A stretch of DNA of 60,600 nucleotides from Bacteroidales bacterium (GTDB lineage: Bacteria > Bacteroidota > Bacteroidia > Bacteroidales > UBA932): the NCBI GenBank assembly GCA_017962925.1, contig JAGCUK010000074.1:1-60600 (forward strand). The letters run 5' to 3'. The notes under the pieces were generated by a model. It searched no databases, was not told the origin of the DNA, and saw nothing but the letters and a program-made list of their open reading frames with translations. Position numbers and translations under genes: made by a program. Shown here in pieces: positions 41,575 through 58,886 of the stretch. Numbering within the stretch: position 1 is the first letter of the stretch; each line of letters begins with the position of its first letter.

Positions 41575-42726
41575 GTGGACAATTACAAGATTATAAGACC
41601 ATCAGATAACGAGTCGTTCGCCGTGGCCATGGCTAGCGTGGTTTCCGGTGTTGACGACTTTTTGGCTACTGAAGAGGCAGCCGGCTTCAAGCCGGTCCGC
41701 ATCCAACTCTTCCTCAGTGACGCCCAGAACCAGTCGGCAGCATTGCGCGATATGGTGGGCTCGCTGACCGGATTTGAGGGAGCCTTTCGGACGGGCAATG
41801 CCCGTACCGGGTTTTTCTCTATTGTGGAACAACCGCCGCTGGATGGGAGCAGGGTGGCAGCGCTGGTGCATACATCCTCCGAAGCGGACAAATTCCTGTT
41901 CCATAGCCTGCGCCTTACCGAAGAGGAGGCCGCCGGCAAAAACTCCTACGAACAGAGCCGCATCCTCTTCGCAAAATATCTGGATATCATCAAACCCCTC
42001 GGCCTCGAACTCAAAACCCACTGCGTCCGAACCTGGATCTACGTACGCGACATCGACTCCAACTACGCCGGAATGGTGCGCGCCCGAAACGAGGTTTTCT
42101 CGGAGGAAGGACTTGATAATCACTACATTGCTAGCACCGGCATAGGCGGCGCCAGCGAGGTTCGTTCTGCCCTCGTGGCGATGGATTTCCTAACGTGCCC
42201 GGCAATAAAGGAGGAGGATAAGACCTATCTGAAGGCCCTGAGTCATCTGAGTCCGACGCGCGATTATGGAGTGGCGTTCGAGCGGGGTGTCAAGGTGGAT
42301 GGCCATATCTTCATCAGCGGCACTGCCAGCATCGATCACCGCGGACACATCCTCCACGAAGGGGATGTTCTTGCTCAGGCTGACCGCCTGCTGGAAAACA
42401 TCGACGCCCTGCTGGCGGAAGGTCTGCAGGACGGGCGCGAGAGCGTTTTACGGCCGGGCAATGCCCGTACTGGGGTCCCCTTGCGGGACACAGACGGGCC
42501 CTTTGCCCGCCGCGGACGGCAAACCGTCCTGCCATACTTCGTCATCTACCTCCGAGATATTTCGGACTACGCAAAAATTGATGCCTACATGCAGGCCCGC
42601 TACCCGGACATCCCCCGCATAATCCTCGAAGCCCGCGTTTGCCGCCCCGGCTGGCTCATAGAAATGGAATGCGAAGTTTCGTTCCGAAAAACCTGCCAAA
42701 ACGGGAACGAAACGCAAAAAATATGA
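41575..42726 (+). CDS. RidA/YjgF-related two-domain protein with in-frame palindromic insertions
   Basis: The 383-residue product has an N-terminal domain (about 1-210) and a C-terminal RidA/YjgF-like domain (about 225-375, VKVDGHIFISGTASIDHRG, YFVIYLRDISDY, and a closing ILEARVCRPGWLIEMECEV). The layout recalls chorismatase-type proteins of the FkbO/Hyg5 group, but no active-site claim is made. The start is a GTG; an ATG at 41568 is out of frame. Three palindromic elements lie in the frame: 41791-41805 (peptide RTGNARTG), 42455-42509 (PGNARTGVPLRDTDGPFAR, in a surface loop before a beta strand), and 42676-42713, which adds SFRKTCQNGNETQKI after the natural C-terminus. Confidence 0.75.
   Translation: MDNYKIIRPSDNESFAVAMASVVSGVDDFLATEEAAGFKPVRIQLFLSDAQNQSAALRDMVGSLTGFEGAFRTGNARTGFFSIVEQPPLDGSRVAALVHTSSEADKFLFHSLRLTEEEAAGKNSYEQSRILFAKYLDIIKPLGLELKTHCVRTWIYVRDIDSNYAGMVRARNEVFSEEGLDNHYIASTGIGGASEVRSALVAMDFLTCPAIKEEDKTYLKALSHLSPTRDYGVAFERGVKVDGHIFISGTASIDHRGHILHEGDVLAQADRLLENIDALLAEGLQDGRESVLRPGNARTGVPLRDTDGPFARRGRQTVLPYFVIYLRDISDYAKIDAYMQARYPDIPRIILEARVCRPGWLIEMECEVSFRKTCQNGNETQKI
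41791..41805 (+). repeat. Half copy of the family C palindrome
   Basis: ACGGGCAATGCCCGT is a 15-bp perfect palindrome with an odd centre base. It is identical to one end of the 55-bp element at 42455-42509 and codes for the same peptide GNART. Confidence 0.8.
42455..42509 (+). repeat. 55-bp palindrome-ended element in the RidA-like gene (family C)
   Basis: The ends are small hairpins: CGGGCAATGCCCGTAC on the left and ACGGGCCCTTTGCCCG on the right. The reverse complement is nearly identical to 58594-58648 in rnpA: of 55 positions about 50 agree, and the first 21 are the same. A further perfect hairpin GGACGG-CAAA-CCGTCC follows at 42514-42529. It codes for a loop in the RidA-like domain. Confidence 0.9.
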
Positions 42727-42760
42727 AGTTTGTTCCGAAAAACCTGCCAAAACGGGAACG
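42676..42760 (+). repeat. Twin hairpin element at the end of the RidA-like gene (family D)
   Basis: A 29-base unit beginning GTTCCGAAAAACCTGCC occurs without change at 42681-42709 and 42732-42760, a period of exactly 51 bases. The first copy sits in a perfect 10-bp stem, GTTTCGTTCC (42676-42685) with GGAACGAAAC (42704-42713); the second has a 5-bp stem GTTCC/GGAAC. The RidA-like stop codon (42724-42726) lies between the copies. Confidence 0.88.
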
Positions 42761-42792
42761 GGGTGACCGAGAAAGAAATGGAAATTAAGAAT

Positions 42793-44178
42793 ATGAAACG
42801 ATTCTATATAATAATTGCTGCGGCGATGCTGATGGCCACCCTGCCATCCTGCACCCGAACCAAATACGCCGACAAATACGGCTTCCTGCCGGAAAACGAC
42901 GCAGTGACCAACTCCGAAGCCTTCCAGAAATGCCTGGACCACGGCGGCCACATCAAAGTGCGCAAACCGGGCGAATATAAACTCTGCCGCACCATCTACC
43001 TGGATTCAAATACCGAGCTGAAATTCGACCCCGGCGCCATACTCAGCCGGGCCGAAGACTCGGAAGGGATGGCCGCCCGCTTCATCCTCCTGAACCGCGG
43101 CGCCCTCACCCGCGAATACAACGAAAACATCTGCATCAAAGGCATTCAGCTCAAGGCGAACGGCATCGACTCCGGCAAAGGCAGGCCGGTGGACATCCCC
43201 ACGATCGTGGGTATGTGCTGCCACACCGGATTCTTCTATGTGAGGAACCTGGTGCTGGATGGCTATACCTTCCTGGATCTGCCCCCGAACGACTTCGCCA
43301 TCCAGATCTGCACCTTCGAGAACGCCATCGTGGAGAACGTGCATATCGAGGGGATGAAGGATGCTGTCCACTTCGGCCCCGGGCGCAATTTCATCGTCCG
43401 CCACGGCATCTTCAAGACCTACGACGACCCCATCGCTCTGAACGCGCATGACTACACCACCTCCAACCCGGAACTCGGCTGGATCGAGAACGGCCTCATC
43501 GAAGATTGCATCGATCTGGACGATCCCGAGCGCGGCACCACCGGGTACTTCGCCCGCATCCTGGCAGGCGGATGGCGCGATTGGGAGTCGGGGATGGACA
43601 TCCAGTCTTCGGGGGATGCGGTGGTCTGCGGAGGGCGCATCTATCGCTCCAACGGCCCCAAGGTGAAGGTGAATTACGTCTCTACCTGCCGCCCGGAGCA
43701 CACAGAAGGCACCGTTACCTACCCCGACGGCATCACCTGGACGATGAGCCAGGACAGCAATATCTGCCACAGTTGCGGCGTGCGCAACGTCATCTTCCGG
43801 GACATCCACCTCGCCAAGAAACGCAGGGTGGCGCTATGCCTGCACTTCGACCACGACCAGTACTCCCGCAGCTTCTATCCCTACGCCGAGATCCCCGTGC
43901 AGAGCAACATAGTGTTCGAGCGGGTGTATGTGGAGAACGAGATTCCCGCGCTGATCCAGAGCCGCACGCCGGTGGACAGCATCATCCTCCGCGACTCCCG
44001 CATCGGCAGCAGCGAGATCCGTATGCTGCATGCGCTGGATACGGAGGGGATGGTGTATGATACTACCCTGGTGCGAGTGGAGAATGTGGAGGCGGATGAC
44101 CTCAGTAAGCTGGTGGGCACCGCCGGCCGCCCGGTGAAAGCCATCGGTGCAGGGGTGTATCGTATCGGAAACAACTAA
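42793..44178 (+). CDS. Right-handed beta-helix lipoprotein, polygalacturonase-like
   Basis: The 461-residue product has a lipoprotein signal (MKRFYIIIAAAMLMATLPSC, Cys20) and a parallel beta-helix: NITEAFQ-type start NSEAFQKCLDHGGHIKV, strands such as NICIKGIQLKANGIDS and RNLVLDGYTFLDLPPNDFAI, and NGPKVKVNYVS. The fold fits glycoside hydrolase family 28 or pectate-lyase-like enzymes. I cannot confirm the catalytic aspartates, and the substrate is unknown. The ATG at 42793 is chosen because it gives the signal peptide; the frame is open further upstream only through the repeat at 42732-42760. Confidence 0.75.
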   Translation: MKRFYIIIAAAMLMATLPSCTRTKYADKYGFLPENDAVTNSEAFQKCLDHGGHIKVRKPGEYKLCRTIYLDSNTELKFDPGAILSRAEDSEGMAARFILLNRGALTREYNENICIKGIQLKANGIDSGKGRPVDIPTIVGMCCHTGFFYVRNLVLDGYTFLDLPPNDFAIQICTFENAIVENVHIEGMKDAVHFGPGRNFIVRHGIFKTYDDPIALNAHDYTTSNPELGWIENGLIEDCIDLDDPERGTTGYFARILAGGWRDWESGMDIQSSGDAVVCGGRIYRSNGPKVKVNYVSTCRPEHTEGTVTYPDGITWTMSQDSNICHSCGVRNVIFRDIHLAKKRRVALCLHFDHDQYSRSFYPYAEIPVQSNIVFERVYVENEIPALIQSRTPVDSIILRDSRIGSSEIRMLHALDTEGMVYDTTLVRVENVEADDLSKLVGTAGRPVKAIGAGVYRIGNN

Positions 44179-44477
44179 TCCAAGAGCTCCGGAGTGTAGT
44201 CCATCTTGACGATCTTGTTGTCGGGGGTGATGGCTACGTACATTTTATCGATGCTGATGCAGCCGCCGCTGACGGGGAATGCGCGGGCGGAGAATCTCCA
44301 GATATAGGCGACAGAAGTGGAATCCACGAGCGTCAACTCGCTGAATTCCATGGAGTTGAGCTCTCCCAGCCGAGCCGAGACACTGGCCCGGATGGCATCC
44401 TCCACGGGCGTGCTTTTTTTCTGGCTGCAGGCACCGGCCAGCAGCAGGACACATAATAGTATTATTCTGGCTCGCAT
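44175..44477 (-). CDS. Small lipoprotein, paralogue of the one at 40998
   Basis: The 100-residue product begins MRARIILLCVLLLAGAC, a lipoprotein signal with Cys17. The body (STPVEDAI, LTLVDST, IDKMYVAITPDNKIVKMDY) matches the ends of the 183-residue lipoprotein 2.7 kb away but lacks its coiled-coil middle. The frame runs open far upstream on the minus strand only as a shadow of pgk; the ATG at 44477 is the real start since it gives a signal peptide and follows a -7 box by 5 bases. The 3' end overlaps the beta-helix gene end by 4 bases. Confidence 0.75.
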   Translation of the reverse strand: MRARIILLCVLLLAGACSQKKSTPVEDAIRASVSARLGELNSMEFSELTLVDSTSVAYIWRFSARAFPVSGGCISIDKMYVAITPDNKIVKMDYTPELLD

Positions 44478-44482
44478 AAGCG

Positions 44483-44490
44483 CAAAGTTA
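44483..44490 (-). promoter_or_regulatory. -7 box TAACTTTG for the small lipoprotein
   Basis: Exact TAnnTTTG on the minus strand ending 5 bases before the ATG at 44477, so the mRNA would be leaderless or nearly so. Confidence 0.6.
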
Positions 44491-44513
44491 ACAAGGATTA
44501 TCGGTATTTTTAT

Positions 44514-44521
44514 TAAATTTG
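44514..44521 (+). promoter_or_regulatory. pgk promoter, -7 box TAAATTTG
   Basis: Exact TAnnTTTG 31 bases before the pgk ATG, divergent from the small-lipoprotein promoter. Confidence 0.6.
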
Positions 44522-44552
44522 CACTCGGAAAATTCAAACCATTTAAAATATT

Positions 44553-45806
44553 ATGCAACAGCACATTGATTCTTATGATTTCACCGGCAAAAAAGCTATT
44601 GTCCGCGTAGATTTCAATGTTCCCCTCAACGAAAATTTCGAAATTACCGACGATACCCGCATCCGTCGCGCCATCCCTACCCTTAAGAAGGTCCTGGCCG
44701 GAGGCGGTTCGGTCATTATAATGAGCCACCTCGGACGCCCCAAGAAGGTAGATCCGAAGTTCTCCCTCAAGCACATCGTCGCTCATGTGAGCGAATGCCT
44801 CGGAGTGCCCGTCCAGTTCGCAGAGGACTGCCAGGCTGCTGACGCACAGGCTGCCGCTCTGAAGCCGGGTGAGGCTCTGCTTCTCGAGAACCTCCGCTTC
44901 TATGCAGAGGAAGAGGGCAAGCCCCGCGGACTTGCAGAGGATGCCTCCGATGAGGAGAAGGCCGCTGCAAAGAAAGCCGTGAAGGCCTCCCAGAAGGAGT
45001 TCACCAAGAAGCTCGCTTCCTATGCAGACTGCTACATCAACGACGCATTTGGCACCGCACACCGTGCACACGCCTCCACCGCCCTTATCGCAGAGTACTT
45101 CCCGAACGACAAGATGTTCGGCTACCTGATGGAAGGCGAGATCAAGGCTATCGACAACGTGCTCAAGAACGCCAAGCGCCCCTTCACCGCAATCATCGGC
45201 GGTAGCAAGGTTTCCTCCAAACTCGCAGTTCTGGAGAACCTCCTTCCCAAGGTGGACAACCTGATCATCGGCGGCGGTATGGGATACACCTTCATCAAGG
45301 CCATGGGCGGCACCATCGGCAACTCCCTGCACGAGGATGACCTCATCCCTCAGGCCCTTGATATCATGAAGCGCGCCAAGGAACTCGGAGTGAACCTGTC
45401 GGTTTCCGTCGAGACCGTGGTTGCCACCGAATATAGCAACGACGCCCCTCACAAGACCGTTTCTTCCATGGAGATTCCCGAAGGATGGGAGGGTATGGAT
45501 GCCGGCGAGGCCTCTCTCGCAAAGTGGAAGGATATCATCCTCGGTTCCAAGACTATCCTCTGGAACGGCCCCGTGGGTGTGTTCGAAATGGAGACCTTCG
45601 CGAAGGGTACCTTGAAGATCGCCGAGTATCTGGCAGATGCAACTGCAGCCGGAGCCTACACCCTCGTCGGTGGCGGTGACTCCGTCGCTGCTGTTACCCA
45701 GATGGGTTATGCCGATAAGGTCAGCTATGTCTCCACCGGTGGCGGCGCAATGCTCGAGGCCATCGAAGGCAAAGACCTTCCCGGCATCGCCGCAGTCCGC
45801 GACTAA
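44553..45806 (+). CDS. pgk: Phosphoglycerate kinase
   Basis: This glycolytic enzyme moves phosphate between 1,3-bisphosphoglycerate and ADP. The 417-residue protein shows the signature [10 protein letters not shown], the substrate-binding SHLGRPK, the hinge and nucleotide-binding pieces ([44 protein letters not shown]) and the C-terminal [19 protein letters not shown]. Length is normal. The DUF2807 gene follows after 14 bases. Confidence 0.98.
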
Positions 45807-45820
45807 TTTTTCCGACCGAA

Positions 45821-46576
45821 ATGAAAAGGATATTTTTTCTTGCTGCTACAGCGGTGCTGGCTTCCTGCCAGATGTTCACCACCCTCTACCAAGTGGGTGA
45901 CGGAGAATCCGTAGACACCATCGTCGATGTTAAGGAATTTGAAACCATTTCAGTTCCGAGCTCGCTGGACGTGTTTTATACTCAGGAAGCCGGAGATCCA
46001 TCCGTCGTCCTCACCTGCGATTCGAATCTGGTGGAGTATTTCAATATCAGAGTCGAGAACGGAACGTTGGTGGTGGACACCCAGAAGGGCTACAGCCTGT
46101 CTCCGAAGGTAAAAACCTACCTCAGGGTCAAGTCTGCAAAGCTCACCGGCGTCAAAAGTTCCGGCTCGGGCGATATCGAAATCAGCAGCTCCCTGACGAA
46201 CGTCGAAGACTTCAGCGTTAAGGCTTCCGGCAGCGGAGATATCTTCTGCCTGGGCACTATTCTTTGCACCAACTTCTCATCCTCCGTCACCGGCTCCGGG
46301 GATACCTCGCTTGCCGGCGTGCAGGCAACGACGGCCGACTTCAAGGATTCCGGCAGCGGCGACATCGGTGTAGATTACCTGAATGCTAATGATATCAACG
46401 TCAGGATGACCGGCAGCGGAGATGTCTCCCTGACGTGCGTGAATGCGGGTTATATCGTGGCTAACCTCAGTGGCAGCGGGGACCTGATCCTCACCGGCGG
46501 CGCCCGTTCCGTGCAGAGCGATGTCACCGGCAGCGGCCGCGTGAACTCCAAGGACCTGACCATCATAAAGCAATAG
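45821..46576 (+). CDS. DUF2807 lipoprotein (GIN-domain, GSGD repeats)
   Basis: The 251-residue product has a lipoprotein signal (FFLAATAVLASC) and a beta-helix-like domain with repeated (S/T)GSGD turns, at least six of them (SSGSGDIEIS, ASGSGDIFCL, VTGSGDTSLA, DSGSGDIGVD, MTGSGDVSLT, LSGSGDLILT). This is the DUF2807 or head-GIN family, widespread in Bacteroidota, without known activity. It is probably co-transcribed with pgk. Confidence 0.88.
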   Translation: MKRIFFLAATAVLASCQMFTTLYQVGDGESVDTIVDVKEFETISVPSSLDVFYTQEAGDPSVVLTCDSNLVEYFNIRVENGTLVVDTQKGYSLSPKVKTYLRVKSAKLTGVKSSGSGDIEISSSLTNVEDFSVKASGSGDIFCLGTILCTNFSSSVTGSGDTSLAGVQATTADFKDSGSGDIGVDYLNANDINVRMTGSGDVSLTCVNAGYIVANLSGSGDLILTGGARSVQSDVTGSGRVNSKDLTIIKQ

Positions 46577-46578
46577 TT

Positions 46579-47472
46579 ATGGTAGAGTTCCCGGGGGACC
46601 AGTGGAAGGATTATGAGCTGCTGGACAGCGGCCGTGGCGAGAAACTCGAACGTTTCGGCCAGGTCGTGATGTGTCGCCCGGAACCTAAAGCCCTGTGGGA
46701 TAAGTCTTTATCTGATGCCGAATGGCGGAGGAGGGCGCACTTTGCGTTCCGTCTGTCGGGGGGCAAGAACAGCGGCTCCGGTGCCATCGAAGACCGGGGC
46801 ACCTGGGACCGTCTGAAGAAGATGGATGACCAGTGGTACATCCGCTACACCGGCTCCGACGACCTGCAGTTCCGCCTGCGCCTGGGCCTCACCGCCTTCA
46901 AGCACGTGGGCGTCTTCCCCGAACAGGCCCCGAACTGGGAATTCATCTACCAGAATACAAAAAGGCTGAACAAGCCGAAGGTGCTGAACCTCTTCGCCTA
47001 CACCGGTGGCGCATCGCTGGCGGCAAAAGCGGCCGGCGCGGATGTCACCCATCTCGACAGCATCAAGCAGGTGGTCACCTGGGCCCGCGGGAATATGGAA
47101 GCCAGCGGCATGGAGGGCATTCGCTGGATTGTGGAGGATGCGATGAAGTTCGTCCAGCGCGAAGAACGCCGCGGCAATCTCTACGACGGCATCATCCTGG
47201 ATCCGCCGGCCTATGGGCATGGCCCGAACGGGGAGAAGTGGAAGTTGGATGAGAGCCTGTTCGGTCTGCTGAAGAGCGTGGCGCATATCCTGAAGCCAAA
47301 GGACTCCTTCATGGTCCTGAACCTCTACTCCAACGGCTACTCCGCCGCCCTGGGTGAGACTCTGGTAAAGGAGTCGTTCGGGCCTAGTTCCCTGACAAGC
47401 GGCGAACTAGCCCTGACCGACCCCTTTGGCAAAACCCTCCCCCTCAGCATCTACGTCCGCCTCACCCGCTAA
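46579..47472 (+). CDS. Class I SAM-dependent methyltransferase, RlmI-like
   Basis: The 297-residue protein has the SAM-binding motif VLNLFAYTGGASLAAKAAGA, an acidic motif in VTHLDSIKQVV, and the DPPAYGHGP motif typical of RNA or DNA amino/base methyltransferases of the RlmI/RlmK group. It lacks a PUA domain. By similarity it probably methylates 23S rRNA. It starts 2 bases after the DUF2807 gene. Near its 3' end an imperfect hairpin (47380-47413) codes for SLTSGELAL. Confidence 0.85.
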   Translation: MVEFPGDQWKDYELLDSGRGEKLERFGQVVMCRPEPKALWDKSLSDAEWRRRAHFAFRLSGGKNSGSGAIEDRGTWDRLKKMDDQWYIRYTGSDDLQFRLRLGLTAFKHVGVFPEQAPNWEFIYQNTKRLNKPKVLNLFAYTGGASLAAKAAGADVTHLDSIKQVVTWARGNMEASGMEGIRWIVEDAMKFVQREERRGNLYDGIILDPPAYGHGPNGEKWKLDESLFGLLKSVAHILKPKDSFMVLNLYSNGYSAALGETLVKESFGPSSLTSGELALTDPFGKTLPLSIYVRLTR

Positions 47473-47491
47473 AAACCAAACACCAAATCAT

Positions 47492-48721
47492 ATGACCAAG
47501 AAAAAAATAAGCACCCTCCCCCTAATCGAACAGGGAAAATGCCATTACGAAGAATACAATATGGTCGAGGCCTGGATTGCATTTTCGAAAGCTGCGGATG
47601 AAGGAGAAGCCGGCGCCTACGCATACATGGGCCAAATGCTTTACGACGGGGATTGGACCCCGGATTACAAATCCGATGTCAATGGCGCGCTTGATCTTTG
47701 GGAGACCGGAATGAAGCTGGGAGATGCCGGATGCAAGGAGCTGTTCGAGCAGCACAAGGATGAAAAGATGTTGGATCCGCAGAAGATAGAGTTCAAGAAC
47801 GGCGACAGATATCTGGGAGATGTCGATGATGCCGGCATGCCGCACGGAAGCGGCCATATGGATTACAAAATCAACGGCTATTATGCTTCATACGATGGCT
47901 TGTGGAAGCACGGAAAACGCTGTGGCAAAGGCACTTACCACAAGTTTAGCAGCGGCGGTGGAGCCAGTCACCGCTATGACTACAAGGGCGAATGGCTGGA
48001 CGACAAAGAGCACGGCAAAGGCGTATCCACCAACAGCGACGAGATTGGCGTCCACCTGAGCAGGGTTGCCGAGGTCTATACAGGAGGATTCCGCGAAGGT
48101 AAGCGCCATGGACACGGCGTTGTGGAAAAAGATAGCTTCGACGGATGTTTCTCCAACGGCAAGGACCGTTTCGAAGGCGAGTTCGAAGATGGCAGGACAG
48201 TCGGCCACGGAGTCTGGGAATATGCCAACGGAGACCGCTTCGAGGGCGAATTCAGCGACTACTTCAATAAGAACGGCCATGGAGTCTATACCTTCTGTGA
48301 CGGCCGGAAATTCGAGGGCGAGTGGGAGGACAATTACTTCCTCGAAGAGAGCTTCCAAAGCGGCGAAAAGACCCCTGTCCTGCTGATAAAGGAGCATCAC
48401 CATGGCTTCGACTACAACTGGACCGGCGTATTCCTGCTGATCCCTCGGAAGGGTATGAATTACTACGAAGAAGCCGCCACCATCAAGAGGGATTCAACTT
48501 TCGAAATGGAGGACAGCGGCCTGGAGGTGCTGAAGATAGATTACGACAGTGTCAGCTACAAGGTTAAGGCGGAGTTCGCAGATAACTCCAAGGAGTCCGA
48601 AGACACCATCCGCCGCGGAGAAACCAAGATCTACAAAAGCTACCGGGAGACCTCCGCAACTATCGAAGGCGACGATTACGATTATTCAATAGAACACCGG
48701 CTGGAAATCACCTGCCGTTAA
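47492..48721 (+). CDS. MORN-repeat protein with Sel1-like N-terminus
   Basis: The 409-residue product has an N-terminal Sel1/TPR-like helical part (EEYNMVEAWIAFSKAADEGE) and then about seven MORN repeats (YKGEWLDDKEHGKG, YTGGFREGKRHGHG, FEGEFEDGRTVGHG, FEGEWEDN), followed by a C-terminal beta domain. There is no signal peptide, so it is probably cytoplasmic. MORN repeats bind lipids or proteins; the role here is unknown. The ATG at 47492 is chosen because the upstream part of the frame overlaps the methyltransferase. It ends directly against the convergent gene with no gap. Confidence 0.8.
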   Translation: MTKKKISTLPLIEQGKCHYEEYNMVEAWIAFSKAADEGEAGAYAYMGQMLYDGDWTPDYKSDVNGALDLWETGMKLGDAGCKELFEQHKDEKMLDPQKIEFKNGDRYLGDVDDAGMPHGSGHMDYKINGYYASYDGLWKHGKRCGKGTYHKFSSGGGASHRYDYKGEWLDDKEHGKGVSTNSDEIGVHLSRVAEVYTGGFREGKRHGHGVVEKDSFDGCFSNGKDRFEGEFEDGRTVGHGVWEYANGDRFEGEFSDYFNKNGHGVYTFCDGRKFEGEWEDNYFLEESFQSGEKTPVLLIKEHHHGFDYNWTGVFLLIPRKGMNYYEEAATIKRDSTFEMEDSGLEVLKIDYDSVSYKVKAEFADNSKESEDTIRRGETKIYKSYRETSATIEGDDYDYSIEHRLEITCR

Positions 48722-52527: not shown

Positions 52528-52533
52528 AGACTA

Positions 52534-52541
52534 CAAATATA
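52534..52541 (-). promoter_or_regulatory. DUF2723 promoter, -7 box TATATTTG
   Basis: Exact TAnnTTTG on the minus strand with 6 bases between its last G and the ATG at 52527. Confidence 0.65.
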
Positions 52542-52586
52542 GTCATTTCTCTCGAAACCTGCTGCGCAGCGGTGGTTTTGGGCGCC

Positions 52587-52669
52587 CAGACTCATTTGGG
52601 GGGTGTTTTTGAGTCTGAGGTGCCGGTTTTGCCCGGTTCAGACTCACCAGGGGGTGCCATTTGAGTCTG
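52587..52669. repeat. Twin hairpins with CAGACTCA arms (family E)
   Basis: Two 31-bp palindromes lie at 52587-52617 and 52639-52669. Both have perfect arms CAGACTCA and TGAGTCTG and G-rich loops containing GGGGGTG. The period is 52 bases, close to the 51 of the coding-region twins at 4703 and 42681. Confidence 0.88.
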
Positions 52670-52674
52670 CAAAA

Positions 52675-52704
52675 ACAAGGGTGCCCGAAACCGAGCACCC
52701 TTGT
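52675..52704. terminator. Terminator-like stem-loop
   Basis: ACAAGGGTGC and GCACCCTTGT form a perfect 10-bp stem with a 10-base loop, flanked by A5 on the left and TTT on the right. It can end minus-strand transcripts coming from the TPR-LuxR gene (the A run becomes U on that strand). Confidence 0.65.
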
Positions 52705-52750
52705 TTAAGGATTTGCCTAAAAACTAGGCGATAGTATGGAACGGCGGAAA

Positions 52751-52816
52751 TTACAGCTTTTCGCAACGGACCTGGTAGCCGGCCGCTGCCAGAACGGGAA
52801 GTAATCTTGCGGTCAT
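52751..52816 (-). CDS. Possible 21-residue peptide or small RNA
   Basis: A minus-strand frame begins MTARLLPVL and ends QVRCEKL. A near -7 box, TATCTTTA, lies at 52831-52824 with 7 bases before the ATG, as for the leaderless genes in this window, and terminator-like stems follow. The start region can also fold (GGAAGT with ACTTCC), so a small RNA is equally possible. No homologue is known to me. Confidence 0.2.
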   Translation of the reverse strand: MTARLLPVLAAAGYQVRCEKL

Positions 52817-52851
52817 ACTTCCGTAAAGATAGTCATTTTTTGAACTGCGTC

Positions 52852-54066
52852 CTACAGTAGATTACCGTCTTTCGCGCGGAGGACGAGTTCGGCGGTGTTG
52901 GCAACGTCGAACTTGATGAGAAGCTTCTGGCGATACCACTTCACCGTCTCGGGGCTGAGGTGCAGGCAATCCGCGATCTGCGGGGATGTATATCCCTTCG
53001 CCAGCAGCTCCAGAATCTCCTTTTCGCGCGTGGAGATATCGGAGGATGCGGCCGCGGCGTGCTGCAGATCCGCCAGCGTCTCCTCCATCACCACCGCGGT
53101 CTCCTCCTGCTCCCTGCGGGATACGCGCAGCCTACGCCCGAGAAGAAGTATGCCGGCGGCGAGCAGGGCAAGCAGCACCATCCCGAAGATGATGACCGTC
53201 AGCTGCTTCTTCTGCTGCTGGAGTGCCAGGGACATATACTCGAAGTTCTCCTTACGGGGGACTGCCTCCTCCTTATCGTGGGCGGCGAAATACTCCTCCG
53301 CCTGATGAAGCTCGCGCAAAGCCTTCCCCATCTTCCCCCTATCCAGATACATCCGCCCCAGACCCTTGTGGCTGGTCGCTATCCAGAGGGAATCCTTCTC
53401 CATCTCGGCATAAGCCAGAGCCTTACGGTAGGCCTTTTCCGCCGCCTTCAGGTCCCCTTCGCCTGCCCAGGTCTCTCCAATATTATAGTAGAGGACGGAG
53501 TTGCTCGTGTTCCAGCCGTACTTGTCGAAGATGGCCCCTGCCTTGGCGTAGAATGCCATCGCCTGGGGGATGGAGTCCTGCATGCTGTAGAGGTTGCCGA
53601 TGGCACCGTAGAGGGAGGATTTGGCGTCGTCGATCTCCTTCTGGCCGTACCCTTCCGGCGCCGTGGGGGAAGTGCCGCCGTTCTCCATCCGCTCGATCGC
53701 CTCGCGGGCCTTGTTGTAGTAGAAGAGCGCGCTGTCGTATTTCTCCTGCGCCCAGAAACACTGGCCTATGAACTTGCTGGCATCCCAATTGGCGAACTCC
53801 CACCCGCGGGATTCGCTGATACTGAGGGCCTTGCGGGCGTAGAACTCGCTTTTGGGGCCGATGGTAGTGCTGTAGCCGAGCATCAGGCTGCGGCAGGCGT
53901 TGTTGAGGTCGATCAGTTCCTGGGTGCCGGCACGGTCGATGGCGTCCGGGGTCCAGCGGGCGACCACCCTTTCGAGGGAGTCCAGGTTGTGACCGCGATG
54001 GTCGTTGTATGCGGTGGCAGGCAGGACCGCGAGGGTTGCCAGAATTGCGATGATTCGTTTGTTCAT
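52852..54066 (-). CDS. TPR-membrane-LuxR transcriptional regulator
   Basis: The 404-residue protein has a signal or N-terminal hydrophobic segment, tetratricopeptide-like helices (about 60-265, e.g. KAAEKAYRKALAYAEMEK), one membrane helix (QLTVIIFGMVLLALLAAGIL, about 287-306), a coiled coil, and a C-terminal LuxR/GerE helix-turn-helix (STREKEILELLAKGYTSPQI, LSPETVKWYRQKLLIKF). This architecture is common in Bacteroidota; the periplasmic TPR part is thought to sense peptides or envelope state. The HTH is very similar to the divergent LuxR protein at 54224. Its -7 box lies 8 bases before the ATG. Confidence 0.88.
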   Translation of the reverse strand: MNKRIIAILATLAVLPATAYNDHRGHNLDSLERVVARWTPDAIDRAGTQELIDLNNACRSLMLGYSTTIGPKSEFYARKALSISESRGWEFANWDASKFIGQCFWAQEKYDSALFYYNKAREAIERMENGGTSPTAPEGYGQKEIDDAKSSLYGAIGNLYSMQDSIPQAMAFYAKAGAIFDKYGWNTSNSVLYYNIGETWAGEGDLKAAEKAYRKALAYAEMEKDSLWIATSHKGLGRMYLDRGKMGKALRELHQAEEYFAAHDKEEAVPRKENFEYMSLALQQQKKQLTVIIFGMVLLALLAAGILLLGRRLRVSRREQEETAVVMEETLADLQHAAAASSDISTREKEILELLAKGYTSPQIADCLHLSPETVKWYRQKLLIKFDVANTAELVLRAKDGNLL

Positions 54067-54074
54067 ACTCAGAA

Positions 54075-54082
54075 CAAATGTA
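54075..54082 (-). promoter_or_regulatory. TPR-LuxR promoter, -7 box TACATTTG
   Basis: Exact TAnnTTTG on the minus strand, 8 bases before the ATG at 54066. Confidence 0.6.
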
Positions 54083-54131
54083 GCGAAAATGTGTGAATGC
54101 CGGGGAGGCTGAGGAGAAAAAAGGGCGTTAT

Positions 54132-54171
54132 TCCACCCTTTGGGGTGGAGCTAACCACCCCGAGGGGTGGT
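54132..54171. repeat. Two adjacent hairpins between divergent LuxR genes
   Basis: TCCACCC-TTTG-GGGTGGA (54132-54149) and ACCACCCC-GA-GGGGTGGT (54154-54171) are both perfect palindromes, 4 bases apart, with the shared core CCACCC/GGGTGG. They lie midway between the two divergent regulators and could be an operator, a terminator, or another dispersed hairpin. Confidence 0.75.
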
Positions 54172-54223
54172 GTTTAAGCGGGGATTAATATGGATATTTG
54201 CAAATACCAATAAAACGGAAACG

Positions 54224-54433
54224 ATGGAAGACGTCAAAACCATTTCTCTAACCAAACGGGAACTCACGATCCTGAAGGAAATCGCCCTCGGCCGCACCAG
54301 CCCGCAAATCGCGGAAAAGTTCGGCCTCAGCCCCGAAACAGTGAAATGGTACCGCAAGCAAATGCTCGACAAATTCGCCGCCACCACCTCCGCCGAGATG
54401 ATCCGCAAGGCCCTCGAACAAAAAATCCTTTGA
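54224..54433 (+). CDS. Small LuxR-type DNA-binding protein
   Basis: The 69-residue product is almost only a LuxR/GerE helix-turn-helix (LTKRELTILKEIALGRTSPQ, LSPETVKWYRKQMLDKF). It has no receiver or sensor domain. Its HTH shares long stretches with the TPR-LuxR protein across the intergenic region, so the two probably bind similar sites and may compete or heterodimerise. The ATG at 54224 is chosen over an upstream frame extension because conserved sequence begins there. The 47-residue peptide gene follows 20 bases after its stop. Confidence 0.8.
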   Translation: MEDVKTISLTKRELTILKEIALGRTSPQIAEKFGLSPETVKWYRKQMLDKFAATTSAEMIRKALEQKIL

Positions 54434-54453
54434 CACATCAAATCTCAAACCAT

Positions 54454-54597
54454 ATGAAAAAAACAACTAGGGAATACCTCGCCCCTGAAGTGGAGGTAAT
54501 GGAAGTGGGCCTTGAAACAAGTTTGCTCACAGGTAGTGAAAACCAGATCCCCAAGCCGACGGATTATACCGGCAGCGGAGAAGGTTTTGATTGGTAA
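54454..54597 (+). CDS. 47-residue small protein of unknown function
   Basis: The peptide starts MKKTTREYLAPEVEVMEVGL and ends YTGSGEGFDW, with the middle ETSLLTGSENQIPK. The pattern Y-x-APE-x-EV followed by a hydrophobic turn and a Gly/Ser-rich tail recurs, in my recollection, in many short Bacteroidales proteins of unknown role. No signal peptide is visible. It lies 20 bases after luxR and 20 bases before a fimbrillin-like lipoprotein gene, so all three are likely one operon. Confidence 0.6.
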   Translation: MKKTTREYLAPEVEVMEVGLETSLLTGSENQIPKPTDYTGSGEGFDW

Positions 54598-54617
54598 ACG
54601 CTAAAAAGGAAAGTATT

Positions 54618-56039
54618 ATGAAAAAGAGTATTTATGCCATTTTAGCAATTGCCGCACTGGTGTGCGCTTGCAATACCAAGGAAGAATATACTCCCGAAGA
54701 AGCCACAGAAGGAATCCCCTTCGTCGCTACTGTTCAGAGTGAAGCTTACACGCGCGCTGTGGCTGAGTCCGGTGGGGATATCACTGTCAATTTTGCCGAG
54801 AGCGAAACCATCGCTCTTGTGTACGAGGTAAGTTCCACACCCTACAAGACCGATGCTACAATCACATCCGTAGACGGTTCTGGGAAAGCCACTATTACGG
54901 CGACTCTTCAGACCGGTGTCACTGACGGAACAGCCGTGACTTTGATTTATCCGGCTTCTGCCGCTGACGGAACTACCGGCAATGTGCTGGCTTCCGCACT
55001 CAGCGCACAGGACGGCACTCTCAGCGCAGCCCGTGACGTCCGTAAGGGAACCGGTACCATCAAGGTAGACGGAACGGCATCGCTTGCGAGCGGAGCAACT
55101 CTCGAGGCACAGTATGCAATCTGCAAGTTCGAAGTAGAGGATGTGGATGGAAGCAACAGCGTTTATGTGAGCAGTTTCGTGGTGAAAGACGCATCCGATA
55201 ATGTTATCACCACCGTTACTCCCGGCTCTGCCACGAGCACGCTTTATGTGGCACTTCCTGCCACCTCCGGTCTTATTTGGTTCGAGGCTGTCGCATCCGA
55301 CAAGCCCTATGTGGCTAAAGGCACTGCTTCCCTGACTGCCGGCAACTTCTACACCCCGACCGTGAGGATGGCAACGATTTTCAATGTCATTGGCCAGAAT
55401 GGTAAGTTCTACAAGGATAAGGCTGACGCTGTTGCTGCCAGTACTACTGCTGCAGCTATTATTGCCTATGTCGGCAATGGAACCGCCGAAAGCGGCTACT
55501 CTCATGGACTTGCAATAGCGATGAAAAATGCTTTAAATGGTACTTATAGTACTATGAGGTGGAGAGAAAGCGGCTCCGGTGTTGATAATGCCGGTCAGTA
55601 TGTTGCAACTTATTATGCCTTAGGTGCCCAGGAGTCCGGACTTACTATCAGTTCTACTAAAAATAACAGCACATATCCTGCTTTTCAGGCTGCAATTGCT
55701 AATTCCATCGCTCTTGTAGATGGTATCTCAAAAAGTGCTCCGTCAGGTACAAGCGGTTGGTTCCTTGCGTCTGCGTATCAGTGGAATCAGATTATCAAAA
55801 GTATGGCTGGAAGTGCTACCGATCTGTCGGAAACCACTAACAATAATCTAAAAAAGGATGCCTTCAATTCGTATTTGTCTGCGGCGGGGATAGATTATTC
55901 TGCTATGAACGAGACTTATTATTGGACAAGTACCGAGTATGATGCCTCTTACTGCTGGCGCTATGAACCAGGAAGTGGAAGGTTGTATTGGTCAGGTAAG
56001 ACAGTGTATCAGGCTGTAAGATCTACGCTTGCTTTCTAG
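54618..56039 (+). CDS. Fimbrillin-like lipoprotein with a C-terminal DUF1566-like domain
   Basis: The 473-residue product has a lipoprotein signal (YAILAIAALVCAC) and an N-terminal fimbrillin-like beta region (FVATVQSEAYTRAVAESGGD, TLIYPASAADGT, AQYAICKFEVEDVDGSN). The C-terminal third (SGWFLASAYQWNQIIKSM, ETYYWTSTEYDASYCW, VRSTLAF) resembles DUF1566/C-type-lectin-fold domains often displayed on the surface. An AAAGGAAAG ribosome site supports the ATG at 54618. From about 55380 the gene is richer in A+T. Its regulators are probably the two LuxR proteins beside it. A terminator follows at 56064. Confidence 0.7.
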   Translation: MKKSIYAILAIAALVCACNTKEEYTPEEATEGIPFVATVQSEAYTRAVAESGGDITVNFAESETIALVYEVSSTPYKTDATITSVDGSGKATITATLQTGVTDGTAVTLIYPASAADGTTGNVLASALSAQDGTLSAARDVRKGTGTIKVDGTASLASGATLEAQYAICKFEVEDVDGSNSVYVSSFVVKDASDNVITTVTPGSATSTLYVALPATSGLIWFEAVASDKPYVAKGTASLTAGNFYTPTVRMATIFNVIGQNGKFYKDKADAVAASTTAAAIIAYVGNGTAESGYSHGLAIAMKNALNGTYSTMRWRESGSGVDNAGQYVATYYALGAQESGLTISSTKNNSTYPAFQAAIANSIALVDGISKSAPSGTSGWFLASAYQWNQIIKSMAGSATDLSETTNNNLKKDAFNSYLSAAGIDYSAMNETYYWTSTEYDASYCWRYEPGSGRLYWSGKTVYQAVRSTLAF

Positions 56040-56063
56040 GAATTTGTTAATACAGATGCTATT

Positions 56064-56095
56064 CAGGGCTACCCTTCCGGGTGGCCCTGTTTTTG
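56064..56095 (+). terminator. Rho-independent terminator after the fimbrillin-like gene
   Basis: CAGGGCTACCC and GGGTGGCCCTG form an 11-bp stem (one wobble pair) with the loop TTCC, followed by TTTTT. Confidence 0.85.
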
Positions 56096-56126
56096 CTTTT
56101 ATTACAAAACTAGTTATACAATTATG

Positions 56127-56153
56127 ATAATTAGGTAATTATTATTATCTTTG
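56127..56153 (+). promoter_or_regulatory. higBA promoter and candidate operator
   Basis: A perfect palindrome ATAATTA-GG-TAATTAT (56127-56142) lies 3 bases before the -7 box TATCTTTG (56146-56153). The higB ATG follows at 56170. The placement fits autorepression by the HigA-like antitoxin. Confidence 0.55.
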
Positions 56154-56169
56154 CAGAAATGATAGTGAG

Positions 56170-56490
56170 ATGAAGGTATTAATGACACAGGAACTATACT
56201 CGCTTTATACTGAGGGGAAGAGCCGTGAGTATAAGGAAGTGGCGATGAACAAAGAACTATATAGTGGCTTTGTTCGTGCCGTCAGGTCAATGGAGTCTGC
56301 GGAGAATGTGGCGGCGTTAAAGCAGTTGAGTTACTTGCATTATGAGAGGTTGAAATATCAGTTGAATGATATGTCATCAGTGCGGTTGTCCAATCGTTTT
56401 GTACATAGATTGATTTTCAGAGAAATGGAAGATGGCATTCAGATTGATTTAATAGAAATAGACAATACACATTATGGAAACAAAAAATGA
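56170..56490 (+). CDS. HigB-like toxin (RelE-type mRNA interferase)
   Basis: The 106-residue basic-acidic product resembles plasmid-maintenance killer proteins of the RelE/HigB fold: helices at the N-terminus, then LSYLHYERLKYQLNDMSSVR and the strand region NRFVHRLIFREMEDGIQIDL. HigB proteins cut mRNA on the ribosome. Toxin-before-antitoxin order is typical of higBA. A+T-rich composition unlike the neighbours suggests transfer. It overlaps higA by 17 bases. Confidence 0.75.
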   Translation: MKVLMTQELYSLYTEGKSREYKEVAMNKELYSGFVRAVRSMESAENVAALKQLSYLHYERLKYQLNDMSSVRLSNRFVHRLIFREMEDGIQIDLIEIDNTHYGNKK

Positions 56491-56947
56491 AGGAATGGTT
56501 GCTTTGAATGGTGCATCACCTGCTATGTTGGTGCATCCTGGCAGTATTCTGGGGGAGGAGTTGAAAGCAAGGAATCTAAGGCAAAAAGACTTTGCAGATG
56601 CTATAGGGCTGCAAGCCACTCATTTAAGCGCATTGATTCACGGTGTACGCAATTTCACGCCAGAAATTGCTACGAAGATTGAGTCCGGTTTGCCGGAGAT
56701 CCCTGCGTCATTCTGGATGAAACTCCAGGCGCAGTACAATCTGGATAAGGCCCGCAAAATGCCCACTTCCCGTTATGTGGATGGGTATTTCCCGAAGACT
56801 TCCCAACAACCCATGATGCTCAGGGATATCGCATCCGAAAAAGGATATAACAACAAGACACAAGTCACTTTGTCTATCCCGCCTTCAGACTGGGAAATCA
56901 TCCGCCTCCTTAGTCTTCGTTTCGGCTGGGAATGGATTCGGCCTTAA
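56474..56947 (+). CDS. HigA-like antitoxin, XRE family
   Basis: The 157-residue product has a helix-turn-helix of the HigA/VapI type (PGSILGEELKARNLRQKDFA, DAIGLQATHLSALIHGVRNF) and a C-terminal extension (about 90-157) that is longer than in classical HigA of about 100 residues. It should neutralise HigB and repress the operon. It ends 40 bases before the DUF4271 promoter box. Confidence 0.82.
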   Translation: METKNEGMVALNGASPAMLVHPGSILGEELKARNLRQKDFADAIGLQATHLSALIHGVRNFTPEIATKIESGLPEIPASFWMKLQAQYNLDKARKMPTSRYVDGYFPKTSQQPMMLRDIASEKGYNNKTQVTLSIPPSDWEIIRLLSLRFGWEWIRP

Positions 56948-56987
56948 AATCTTTTGACGTTACTCGCAGTGAACGGGAAAGATTCCC

Positions 56988-56995
56988 TATCTTTG
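56988..56995 (+). promoter_or_regulatory. DUF4271 promoter, -7 box TATCTTTG
   Basis: Exact TAnnTTTG with 7 bases before the ATG at 57003. Confidence 0.65.
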
Positions 56996-57002
56996 CACCA
57001 CG

Positions 57003-57707
57003 ATGGATCTGGGGACTTTGCATCTGCCTACAGAGAGGCCGGCGGCGATCGTTGCGGCCGGGTGGGGGGATGTGCCGGCGCATACCTGGATGCTGCTGGC
57101 GTGTGCCGTCATCATCCTCTTCCTTCTTCTGGAAATCTACAAACTGCTGCCGGCGATGCTGGGATGTCTCGCGCGGAGCCGGGGGAATCTGGAGGTTGAG
57201 CATAGCGTCAGCACGGCACGCTCCAGGAACACCTGCGCGCGCCTCCTCTCCGTCACCTTCATAGTTGCGGCAGACCGCTACGCACTCTACAACGCCAGTT
57301 TCATCGCTCCCTGGAGCGAACCCTGGCTGCGGCTGGCGGAACTCGCGGCAGTGCTGCTGGCATTCAACAGCATCCGCCTCCTCATGCACGCCCTCCTCAT
57401 CGAACTCCGTCGCAACCGTCCGGACCACGAAACTCGCCTGGCACTCCGGCGCGGAATCTATAATTATTTCATCTGCTTCGTGCTGCTGATGTTGATTTCC
57501 CTCTGCGTACTGGTGGCGTTCCGCGCGTCGGATATCGCAATCCGCTGGTGTATATGGGGTGAACTGGCCGTGATGTGGCTGGTGGCGCTGGTCCGGGAAG
57601 GGCAGATTTTAAGCTCAAAATGCGGTGGATTGTCAACATTTTTGTATCTTTGCGGGCTTGAAATAATACCGGCCGCCGTGCTCATCGCCTCCGGGCTGGT
57701 TTTATAG
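57003..57707 (+). CDS. DUF4271 membrane protein
   Basis: The 234-residue product has about six hydrophobic helices (WMLLACAVIILFLLLEIYKL; YFICFVLLMLISLCVLVAFR; LEIIPAAVLIASGLVL) and matches the DUF4271 pattern that in Bacteroidales stands next to hemD. Function unknown. The position before hemD and the shared strand suggest one transcript, but an internal -7 box at 57645 allows hemD to be made alone. Confidence 0.8.
   Translation: MDLGTLHLPTERPAAIVAAGWGDVPAHTWMLLACAVIILFLLLEIYKLLPAMLGCLARSRGNLEVEHSVSTARSRNTCARLLSVTFIVAADRYALYNASFIAPWSEPWLRLAELAAVLLAFNSIRLLMHALLIELRRNRPDHETRLALRRGIYNYFICFVLLMLISLCVLVAFRASDIAIRWCIWGELAVMWLVALVREGQILSSKCGGLSTFLYLCGLEIIPAAVLIASGLVL
57645..57652 (+). promoter_or_regulatory. 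Internal promoter, -7 box TATCTTTG, before hemD
   Basis: Exact TAnnTTTG inside the 3' end of the DUF4271 gene, in a locally A+T-rich stretch, 71 bases before the hemD ATG. Confidence 0.45.
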
Positions 57708-57723
57708 GCCAGAATTGACAGAT

Positions 57724-58458
57724 ATGAGAATACTGATATCACAGCAGGCACCTGCGAAGATGACTGCGTACGAAACCCTGCAGGGGAAGTTCAAAGCGGA
57801 AGTTTCTTTCCGTCCGTTCTTCAAGATTGAAGCCCTCAGTTCCCGCGAATTCCGCGAACAGCGCGTCAACCTGCCGGACTATACCGCCATTCTTTTCTCT
57901 TCGCGTCACGCCATCGATGCATATTTCAAACTTGCCGAGGAGTTGCGTTTCAAGGTCCCCGAGACCATGAAATACTTCTGCTCCACCGAGTTAGTCGCCA
58001 TTTATCTCCAGAAACATATCGTTTTCCGCAAGCGCAAGATTTTCTTCGGCAACGGTTCTCCGGAGTCGGTGGTGGCGCTGATTGGCCCCAAGCACAAGGG
58101 CGAGAAGTTCCTCGTCACCAAGTCCGCCGGCGCAAATGTCGACGGGCTGACTTCTCTGCTCGACAAGGCTGGCATCGATTACACCGAGGCCGAGCTTGTG
58201 AAGAGTGTCACGCAGGATCTGCATGACCTCGATCTTTCTACCTACGATATTATCGCTCTCTACAATCCTGCGGATGTGAAGTCGCTGCAGGAGAATTTCC
58301 CTGAGTTCAAGCAGGGGAAGGTAAAGTTCGCCGGATGGGGCAAGAGTATTGTTCCGGCGATGGAGGAGGCGGGGTTGAATATCGATATTCAGGGTCCTAC
58401 TCCCGAGGCGCCTTCGGTGGCTCGGGCGATCGAGCTTTATCTTCAGCAGAATAAGTAG
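57724..58458 (+). CDS. hemD: Uroporphyrinogen-III synthase
   Basis: HemD closes hydroxymethylbilane to uroporphyrinogen III. The 244-residue protein has the two-lobed fold with typical pieces: YTAILFSSRHAIDAYFKLAE, KYFCSTELVAIYLQ, TYDIIALYNPADVKSLQENF and GPTPEAPSVARAIELYL. The ATG at 57724 is preferred to the TTG at 57715. It is followed by rnpA after 2 bases, as in other Bacteroidales. Confidence 0.9.
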   Translation: MRILISQQAPAKMTAYETLQGKFKAEVSFRPFFKIEALSSREFREQRVNLPDYTAILFSSRHAIDAYFKLAEELRFKVPETMKYFCSTELVAIYLQKHIVFRKRKIFFGNGSPESVVALIGPKHKGEKFLVTKSAGANVDGLTSLLDKAGIDYTEAELVKSVTQDLHDLDLSTYDIIALYNPADVKSLQENFPEFKQGKVKFAGWGKSIVPAMEEAGLNIDIQGPTPEAPSVARAIELYLQQNK

Positions 58459-58460
58459 TT

Positions 58461-58886
58461 ATGGCTTCGGGGGGCAACACGCTGAGCAAGGCTGAGCGGC
58501 TGTCTGGCAAGAAGTCAATTGCGACCCTTCTGGCCGACGGCAAGTGGGGGGCGTACGGCCATTTCCGGTATTGCTGGCTCATTCCCTCCTCGTCGGGCAA
58601 AGGGCCCGTCTGTGGCCCGCAAGGGGCCAGCAGTACGGGCATTGCCCTCCCGAAGGAGCCAACGCCTGCCAGCGACCGGCCGGGCCGGATACTGATATCC
58701 GTGCCGAAGCGGTATTTCAAGAGGGCGGTGAAGAGGAATTTGCTGAAGAGGAGGATACGGGAGGCGTACCGGGTGCGGAAGGTCTACGGCGTGGATATCC
58801 TCTTTCAATATAACTCGCCGGAGCTGGCGGATTTCGCGGCCATCAGCGCCGACGTTGCGGCAATTCTCGAACGGATAGAGGCATGA
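58461..58886 (+). CDS. rnpA: Ribonuclease P protein component with an in-frame palindromic insertion
   Basis: RnpA is the protein part of RNase P, which trims the 5' ends of tRNAs. The 141-residue protein has the family pattern at both ends: [20 protein letters not shown], and the RNR motif in [18 protein letters not shown]. Between them, where most homologues have a short loop, an extra segment (about residues 45-65, [20 protein letters not shown]) is coded by the 55-bp element at 58594-58648. The conserved strand LISVPKRYF resumes after it. The stop overlaps yidD as ATGA. Confidence 0.9.
58594..58648 (-). repeat. 55-bp palindrome-ended element in rnpA (family C, inverted)
   Basis: This is the reverse-oriented copy of 42455-42509. 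It starts CGGGCAAAGGGCCCGTCTGT and ends ACGGGCATTGCCCT. Weaker likeness continues a few bases beyond both ends (TCCnCGn before it; CCG after it), so the true element may be slightly longer than 55 bases. Confidence 0.9.

Follow-up and report, generated by a model that had tools for sequence, protein, structure and literature searches.

In-frame palindromic elements of Bacteroidales with backward copies of host sequence at some sites and opposite orientations at orthologous sites

Described systems and the two copies in the window

Selfish palindromes inserted in frame in genes have been described for Rickettsia and Wolbachia (PMC2229807, PMC3767692). According to the available excerpts, Rickettsia palindromic elements (RPE) are 105–146 bp long and lie in frame in conserved genes, and one product was shown to be active (PMC2229807); several families of Rickettsia and Wolbachia elements occur per genome and one gene region can be used by different elements (PMC2229807, PMC3767692). 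In the open-licence literature, where papers on protein-coding palindromes were judged by title and the start of the abstract, we found no case of such palindromes in Bacteroidales or Bacteroidetes. Here we describe a family of palindromes, family A, with two copies in a stretch of 60,600 nucleotides from a Bacteroidales bacterium (contig JAGCUK010000074.1 of assembly GCA_017962925.1, positions 1 to 60,600), referred to below as the window.

Like the Rickettsia and Wolbachia elements in the available excerpts, family A consists of short dispersed palindromes that lie in frame in conserved genes and leave the open reading frames (ORFs) open. Unlike RPE, for which the excerpts of PMC2229807 give 105–146 bp, it measures approximately 74–90 bp: the core has 74 positions, or about 90 with a left extension recognized by reading, and so lies below the size of approximately 100–150 bp that characterizes RPE. 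Furthermore, an exact-pattern scan of 84,980 species found family A only in Bacteroidales/Bacteroidia and not in Rickettsiales. Family A also shows a host-copied outer stem and opposite orientations at orthologous sites, and the available excerpts of PMC2229807 and PMC3767692 mention neither for RPE. By these comparisons family A appears to be closest in kind to RPE and yet separate, size and phylum rather than sequence comparison setting the two apart. Probably, family A represents tolerated selfish in-gene palindromes of about 74–90 bp whose stems are extended, homogenized and inverted by template switching.

The two copies in the window and their host genes are listed below.

41575..42726, plus strand: host gene 1, RidA-like ORF, Ribonuc_L-PSP (Pfam), with weak similarity to chorismatase FkbO/Hyg5 (NCBIfam, below cut-off)
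42446..42519, plus strand: family-A copy 1, 74-nt core, in frame in the RidA-like gene (covariance-model match of 96 bits)
42426..42434, plus strand: left outer arm GCAGGACGG of copy 1, a 9-bp perfect complement of 42524–42532
42524..42532, plus strand: right outer arm CCGTCCTGC of copy 1, pairing with 42426–42434; relatives are insert-free at this site
41780..41811, plus strand: partial family-A copy, left end only, in the RidA-like gene (DNA search, E = 9.6e-4)
58461..58886, plus strand: host gene 2, rnpA ORF (RNase P protein; NCBIfam, below the curated cut-off), with insert-free relatives
58584..58657, minus strand: family-A copy 2, in frame in rnpA and opposite to the gene (covariance-model match of 86.4 bits)
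58573..58578, plus strand: short outer arm GCTGGC of copy 2, pairing with 58668–58673; this 6-bp run alone is at chance level

A preliminary description of the window had noticed these copies as a 55-bp element occurring twice, at about 50 of 55 identical positions, in unrelated genes and without loss of the reading frame. The agreement between 42455–42509 and the reverse complement of 58594–58648 is exactly 50/55, and one copy recovers the other with nhmmer inside the window (E = 9.2e-9). The two hosts are indeed unrelated, and both copies are in frame in their ORFs. The length did not stand, since the conserved unit comprises approximately 74 nt. Nor did the view of the ends as two separate small hairpins: they pair with each other and form one long three-tier hairpin. 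The likening to RPE, as a mobile palindromic element tolerated in proteins, is supported by the data below and is apt as an analogy. In sum, the description was correct yet understated; it did not mention the host-derived inverted arms, the switching of orientation at orthologous sites and the further palindrome families in the genus.

Structure, host genes and distribution of family A

The core folds as one long hairpin. Its outer stem, P1, pairs GACGGGCAA with TTGCCCGTC; stem P2 and the terminal hairpin P3 follow inwards, and the internal loops contain invariant bases. An alignment (A1) was made from 30 of 33 copies, leaving aside two half copies (L009 and L016) and one interrupted copy (L010). 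In these 30 copies, 94.0% of the cells are standard pairs compared with 80.7% in shuffles, both partners have changed in 16 of the 23 pairs, and covariation scores 0.337 compared with 0.111 (sd 0.010) in shuffles. On each of five measures, all of 500 shuffles remained below the alignment, and every slid control lay far lower, where it should be noted that the structure was taken from one copy, which biases the slid control in its favour, and that related sequences may beat shuffles without any structure.

Strong covariation and invariant unpaired bases would also be expected of a structured RNA under selection, such as a regulatory RNA or a splicing-like or ribosome-bypass element whose outer stem is selected for mRNA folding. 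We regard this as extremely improbable, as the element occurs in both orientations relative to the host gene and uses at least five of the six frames, the host frames that were read remain open through it, and five loci searched against Rfam had no match above the gathering thresholds. More generally, compensatory change within a palindrome need not signal a functional RNA. In the Rfam search, run on these loci with E up to 1, three sub-threshold rows appeared, two of them from a Streptomyces sRNA model that overlaps the element at 26.4 and 29.7 bits, the gathering score being 43; kinship was rejected and the rows were attributed to the similarity of G+C hairpins. A GC-GNNR-GC mini-hairpin to the left of the core may or may not be part of the element, as a similar motif is native in rsmE and the mini-hairpin is present in many other copies.

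Copies of family A were searched at several levels. A DNA search of the genome of the window (2.03 Mb, 84% complete) returned 17 rows with E ≤ 10. Among 101 genomes (this one and 100 relatives), three had matches at E ≤ 0.001; these were the own genome together with G045 and G040, and they belong to a single genus. The 30 aligned copies served to build a covariance model, which matched the own genome at 17 places, G045 at 21 and G040 at two (E ≤ 0.1, 150 candidates scored per genome). A lack of further copies, by which the preliminary description would have been refuted, is therefore not the case. With stricter filters (16 candidates scored per genome, E ≤ 0.01), 299 genomes of the family gave matches only in the own genome and G045. 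Finally, one genome for each of 84,980 GTDB species was scanned with an exact degenerate pattern, which would miss divergent relatives and in which the window's own records may not be included; it yielded 38 stretches in 10 genomes, all of them uncultured metagenome-assembled genomes of Bacteroidales/Bacteroidia (RUG10780, RUG257, RUG11258, RGIG7808, RGIG6641, RGIG2770, three SRR bins and UBA2861). RGIG7808 is from water buffalo reticulum, RGIG6641 from sheep rumen and RGIG2770 from goat omasum; the RUG labels presumably denote rumen genomes. Family A is dispersed through the genomes of Bacteroidales species related to one another, of which several come from the rumen. The comparison set comprised 41 + 40 = 81 copies from 12 genomes, 10 of 51 matches having been dropped as RUG10780 copies already counted under G045. 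G045 was treated as the same genome as RUG10780 and is called a related species without a tree.

As judged from frames and family searches, 39 of the 40 covariance-model copies are in frame in genes; the exception, L333, lies in repeat-rich sequence. The hosts named by NCBIfam/Pfam, a number of them with scores below the curated cut-offs, include ArgS, PurL, MetK, RsmE (at two sites), MnmA, RnpA, IleS, FolC, MurF, HemW, TruA, TrmB, AroD-AroA, ApbE, MutL, PcrA/UvrD, MurB, AroB, MetG and RsmA, as well as an AIR synthase (PurM-like), a glycosyltransferase and several glycosidases. DapF, confirmed by Pfam, carries a copy at one site common to the own genome and G045. At one site in two species (L354 and L357), the element was read to lie between genes, after a stop codon and before a start codon. 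Among the 30 aligned copies, 16 have no stop in any of the six frames, compared with 6.3% of mononucleotide shuffles, for which survivorship may be the explanation.

Two host loci showed additional features. The copy in the glycosyltransferase gene of L010 (1430–1545) is interrupted by another palindrome (CCCCCAAAAACTGCAGTTTTTCGGGGG) and the frame is still open. A GH88-family gene with the element (L034 and L362) is 99.7% identical in translation between RUG10780 and RUG257 and identical in the stretch that was read. Most other shared loci are more divergent, and either a recent transfer or a shared assembly might account for this pair.

Insert-free alleles of the host genes, which had been proposed as a check on mobility, were found in relatives. 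The insert of the RidA-like gene is absent in all eight relatives aligned. Of 29 relative loci for rnpA, 28 align over fewer residues than the own protein has, which fits an absence of the insert, and the remaining locus (G010) has a long loop of other sequence; in 15 relatives the loop between the motifs measures 57–62 amino acids compared with 85 in the own protein. Judged solely from the alignments with insert-free orthologs, the two window copies would lie in surface loops. In ileS, 24 of 29 relative loci were readable by motif and 23 of them are insert-free, G019 having another palindromic insert. The corresponding numbers for metK are 10 readable loci of 29 and nine without insert, with another insert in G009. 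The truA gene is a hot spot in which several species of the genus have different palindromic inserts in one loop, with perfect arms of up to 27 bp; the longest arms were seen in truA of G028 (L109), where they enclose a 114-nt loop. Subjects with an insert or remnant of their own (in ileS, truA, metG, fucosidase and L370) were excluded from the insert-free count. A deletion remnant of family A was seen in metG of G045 (L245, 8733–8773). No target duplication was noticed in the pairs of full and empty sites, although a systematic search was not made.

Outer arms and orientation at orthologous sites

Beyond the core, many copies have an outer stem whose sequence varies by site. When the two 40-nt flanks of a copy were compared for perfect pairing, the longest run reached 9 bp or more in 14 of 31 copies, as against 10 of 930 mismatched pairs of flanks. 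The larger set gave such runs in 28/77 copies and 80/5814 mismatched flank pairs, the latter count being inflated by orthologous copies. These statistics cover 31 of 33 copies in the smaller set and 77 of 81 in the larger.

Eight sites for which another species has an insert-free allele were read for an arm that is the reverse complement of the adjacent native sequence; a backward copy of the native flank was clear at two sites and partial at two others. At the C-site of rsmE, the insert-free alleles (own genome, RGIG7808 and SRR12081293) have the left segment only, and the insert in RUG10780 ends in a 13-bp backward copy of that segment; 16 of the 17 corresponding nt match in RUG257 and SRR873598. 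The arm inserted at glycosyltransferase site 1 is likewise a clear backward copy of the native flank, 10 bp long. The left arm in uvrD/pcrA copies 10 bp of the right flank backwards, in the form which that flank has kept in the own genome, the pair in G045 now being 6 bp, and the beta-glucosidase site shows an imperfect backward copy with a perfect run of 7 bp. In addition, orthologous arms change in concert: in purL, one species has the pair GCATGACGC/GCGTCATGC, another the pair GCAAGACGC/GCGTCTTGC.

As some group II introns do with terminator stems, family A might pick hairpins that pre-exist in genes as its targets, the arms then being native. The arms in metK point in this direction: they are conserved native codons (QIRH and MPYL), and partial complementarity is already present in insert-free relatives. 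The second arm is absent from the insert-free alleles of other species at the rsmE C-site and at glycosyltransferase site 1, and we consider a preference for such targets very improbable as an explanation for family A.

The same element is often found in different orientations at the same place. Among 19 sites common to at least two species, the orientation is opposite between species at eight (metK, ileS, mutL, apbE, murF, folC, truA and the rsmE C-site) and the same at 11. For this count, merged groups were split into sites by hand (apbE with the two rsmE sites, and the two glycosyltransferase sites), and the pair L333/L363 was excluded because of its repeat-rich sequence. Of the 81 copies, only the four in mutL have the stem variant CCAGGC, and one of these four is oriented opposite to the other three. 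As inversion leaves a stem unchanged, its presence in both orientations argues for inversion at the site itself. The 13-bp arms of the ileS copies are almost the same in RUG10780 and RUG11258; of the 87-nt interiors between them, 80 of 87 positions agree if one is inverted and 64 (gapped) if neither is, and the spacer agrees at 8/10. Two variants of P1 occur at one metG site, each in two species, GAGAGGC/GCCTCTC and GAAAAGC/GCTTTTC; P2 differs as well. One glycosyltransferase copy resembles a mosaic of two variants.

Template switching is reported to homogenize the arms of inverted repeats and to invert spacers in yeast genes (PMC8604942), and to make reverse-complement stems in RNA genes (PMC8794818), as described in the available parts of both papers. 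The changes in family A resemble such quasipalindrome mutations in the homogenization of arms, the apparent inversion of the spacer and the appearance of new reverse-complement stems. Unlike in yeast and RNA genes, the process would here act repeatedly on a dispersed element family inside proteins. Perfect inverted repeats in functional protein genes have also been described for the mitochondria of Nematomorpha, with template switching discussed as a possible cause; the available part of that paper shows no dispersed core, unlike family A, and the case is mitochondrial (PMC6649704).

According to the scheme that we favour, family A, which is apparently mobile and non-coding, would insert in frame and be translated as an extra, presumably neutral loop. 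After or at insertion, the hairpin would provoke template switching by the DNA polymerase: the nascent strand would fold back and copy adjacent host sequence inverted, giving a longer stem. Further template switching would keep the arms complementary and sometimes flip the interior, and in-place inversion may lie behind most of the differences in orientation. The first arm may arise after insertion rather than at it, as favoured by the copies without long arms and by the concerted change of arms.

Alternatively, the insertion reaction itself might make the inverted arm, for instance by fold-back or hairpin-primed transposition that copies 8–20 nt of the target, and opposite orientations would reflect independent insertions into insert-tolerant loops. 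The right arm and spacer belong to the inserted DNA at the rsmE C-site and glycosyltransferase site 1, in agreement with this possibility, and the unrelated inserts in the same loops of other species (truA, ileS and metK) show that loop hot spots exist. Moreover, Y1_Tnp genes were found in all nine genomes tested, in eight of them above the family cut-off. These points have to be set against the existence of copies without long arms and against the orthologous arms of purL and truA, which differ between species and yet pair in each, indicating that change continued after insertion. The rare mutL stem variant, present in all four copies and in both orientations, and the arms shared by RUG10780 and RUG11258 around oppositely oriented interiors of ileS likewise argue for changes in place, so that an origin of arms and orientations in the insertion reaction seems unlikely to us.

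Several observations weigh against repeated template switching on a mobile element. First, three of the eight sites with insert-free alleles have no arm above chance, namely the rsmE N-site, L337 and the following site in the window.

47366..47391, plus strand: insert-free site; the same methyltransferase gene in the related species G045 holds a family-A copy here (locus comparison)

At L373, there is an 8-bp arm pair whose native side is not assignable; in metK both arms are native, so that no copying is needed there; and the arm runs of two near-identical copies that look recent measure no more than 4 bp (L005) and 8 bp (L006). Second, the ileS interior would match better inverted after any insertion in the opposite orientation, and the spacer match is equalled by one unrelated copy among the 81, so that the evidence from ileS consists of the shared arms and the spacer match. 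Third, location in genes is barely above random: 68 of 81 copies are flanked on either side by at least 50 codons open in some frame, a shorter stretch sufficing at a contig end, and 1153 of 1500 positions drawn at random from the window and G045 pass the same test. Family A thus does not avoid genes; as random positions are open almost as often, a preference for genes is not claimed, and targeting of genes was dropped as an explanation. Fourth, no transposase could be tied to family A. At 13 loci with RAYT genes, none had a core-like match beside the gene, and a link to the Y1 transposase was rejected on this ground.

As a tentative generalization of template switching, which we consider possible rather than probable, any inserted hairpin in the genus (family A, family B described below, RAYT-linked repetitive extragenic palindromic elements (REPs) and others) would grow by backward copying, become perfect again after host mutation and flip. 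Together with this, the loops of essential proteins would evolve under a DNA-hairpin drive and not under selection on the protein.

The inserts lie in ordinary genes that are often essential, among them those for tRNA synthetases, cell-wall and nucleotide metabolism and RNA modification, and full, empty and flipped alleles of one site are available across related species. Thus, the origin and upkeep of long perfect stems in genes, and the share of protein loop evolution that is due to hairpin-driven mutation, can be tested from sequence data.

RAYT-like genes and other palindromes in the genus

REPs are imperfect palindromes of 20–40 bp, tagged by GTAG or CGTC, and lie mostly between or downstream of coding regions and sometimes in genes, as stated in the available part of PMC3733652. 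Like REPs and bacterial interspersed mosaic elements, family A consists of dispersed imperfect palindromes in a genus with RAYT-like (Y1 transposase) genes. It differs from them in being longer, in lying mostly in genes and in occurring beside none of the RAYT loci examined. Alignment A1 contains no invariant GTAG, and a CGTC at the right foot is paired and variable. The nearest family-A copy to a RAYT gene is approximately 6.6 kb away (locus L171). When six RAYT loci were scanned for repeats against 361 kb of sequence from the own genome, no peak appeared, the scan being so insensitive that it missed the hairpins of L172. In comparison with miniature inverted-repeat transposable elements, the ends of family A pair with each other; direct duplications at the ends were considered above.

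The RAYT-like gene L172 of the own genome is flanked by hairpins of its own (TATGCAAAAC type), whose sequence is unlike family A. A small hairpin of the type that flanks this gene, TATGCAAAAT...TTTTGCATA, lies in frame in the ATP synthase gamma gene at approximately 4705–4780 of the window and is followed by a near copy at a distance of about 51 bp. By reading, some copies of this type (L239) have host-specific arms of 9–10 bp.

The ATP synthase gamma gene also holds a copy of another palindrome, family B, found in the inverted-repeat survey.

5159..5261, plus strand: family-B copy with two GGGAGGGGCC boxes and 15-bp perfect arms, in frame in the ATP synthase gamma gene (Pfam ATP-synt)

Family B has six matches in the own genome and matches in nine others of 61 genomes searched, most of which are weak. 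The survey itself was made on 20-kb samples and returned many short-loop, terminator-like hairpins, among which chosen cases with long arms were read singly.

Two further repeats were noted. The window contains identical 28-bp repeats (GTTCCGAAAAACCTGCCAAAACGGGAAC) at 42681–42708 and 42732–42759, with starts 51 bp apart. A palindrome similar to this repeat, GTTCCGAAAA...CGGAAC, is located just upstream of the apbE copies of family A in RUG257 and SRR873598.

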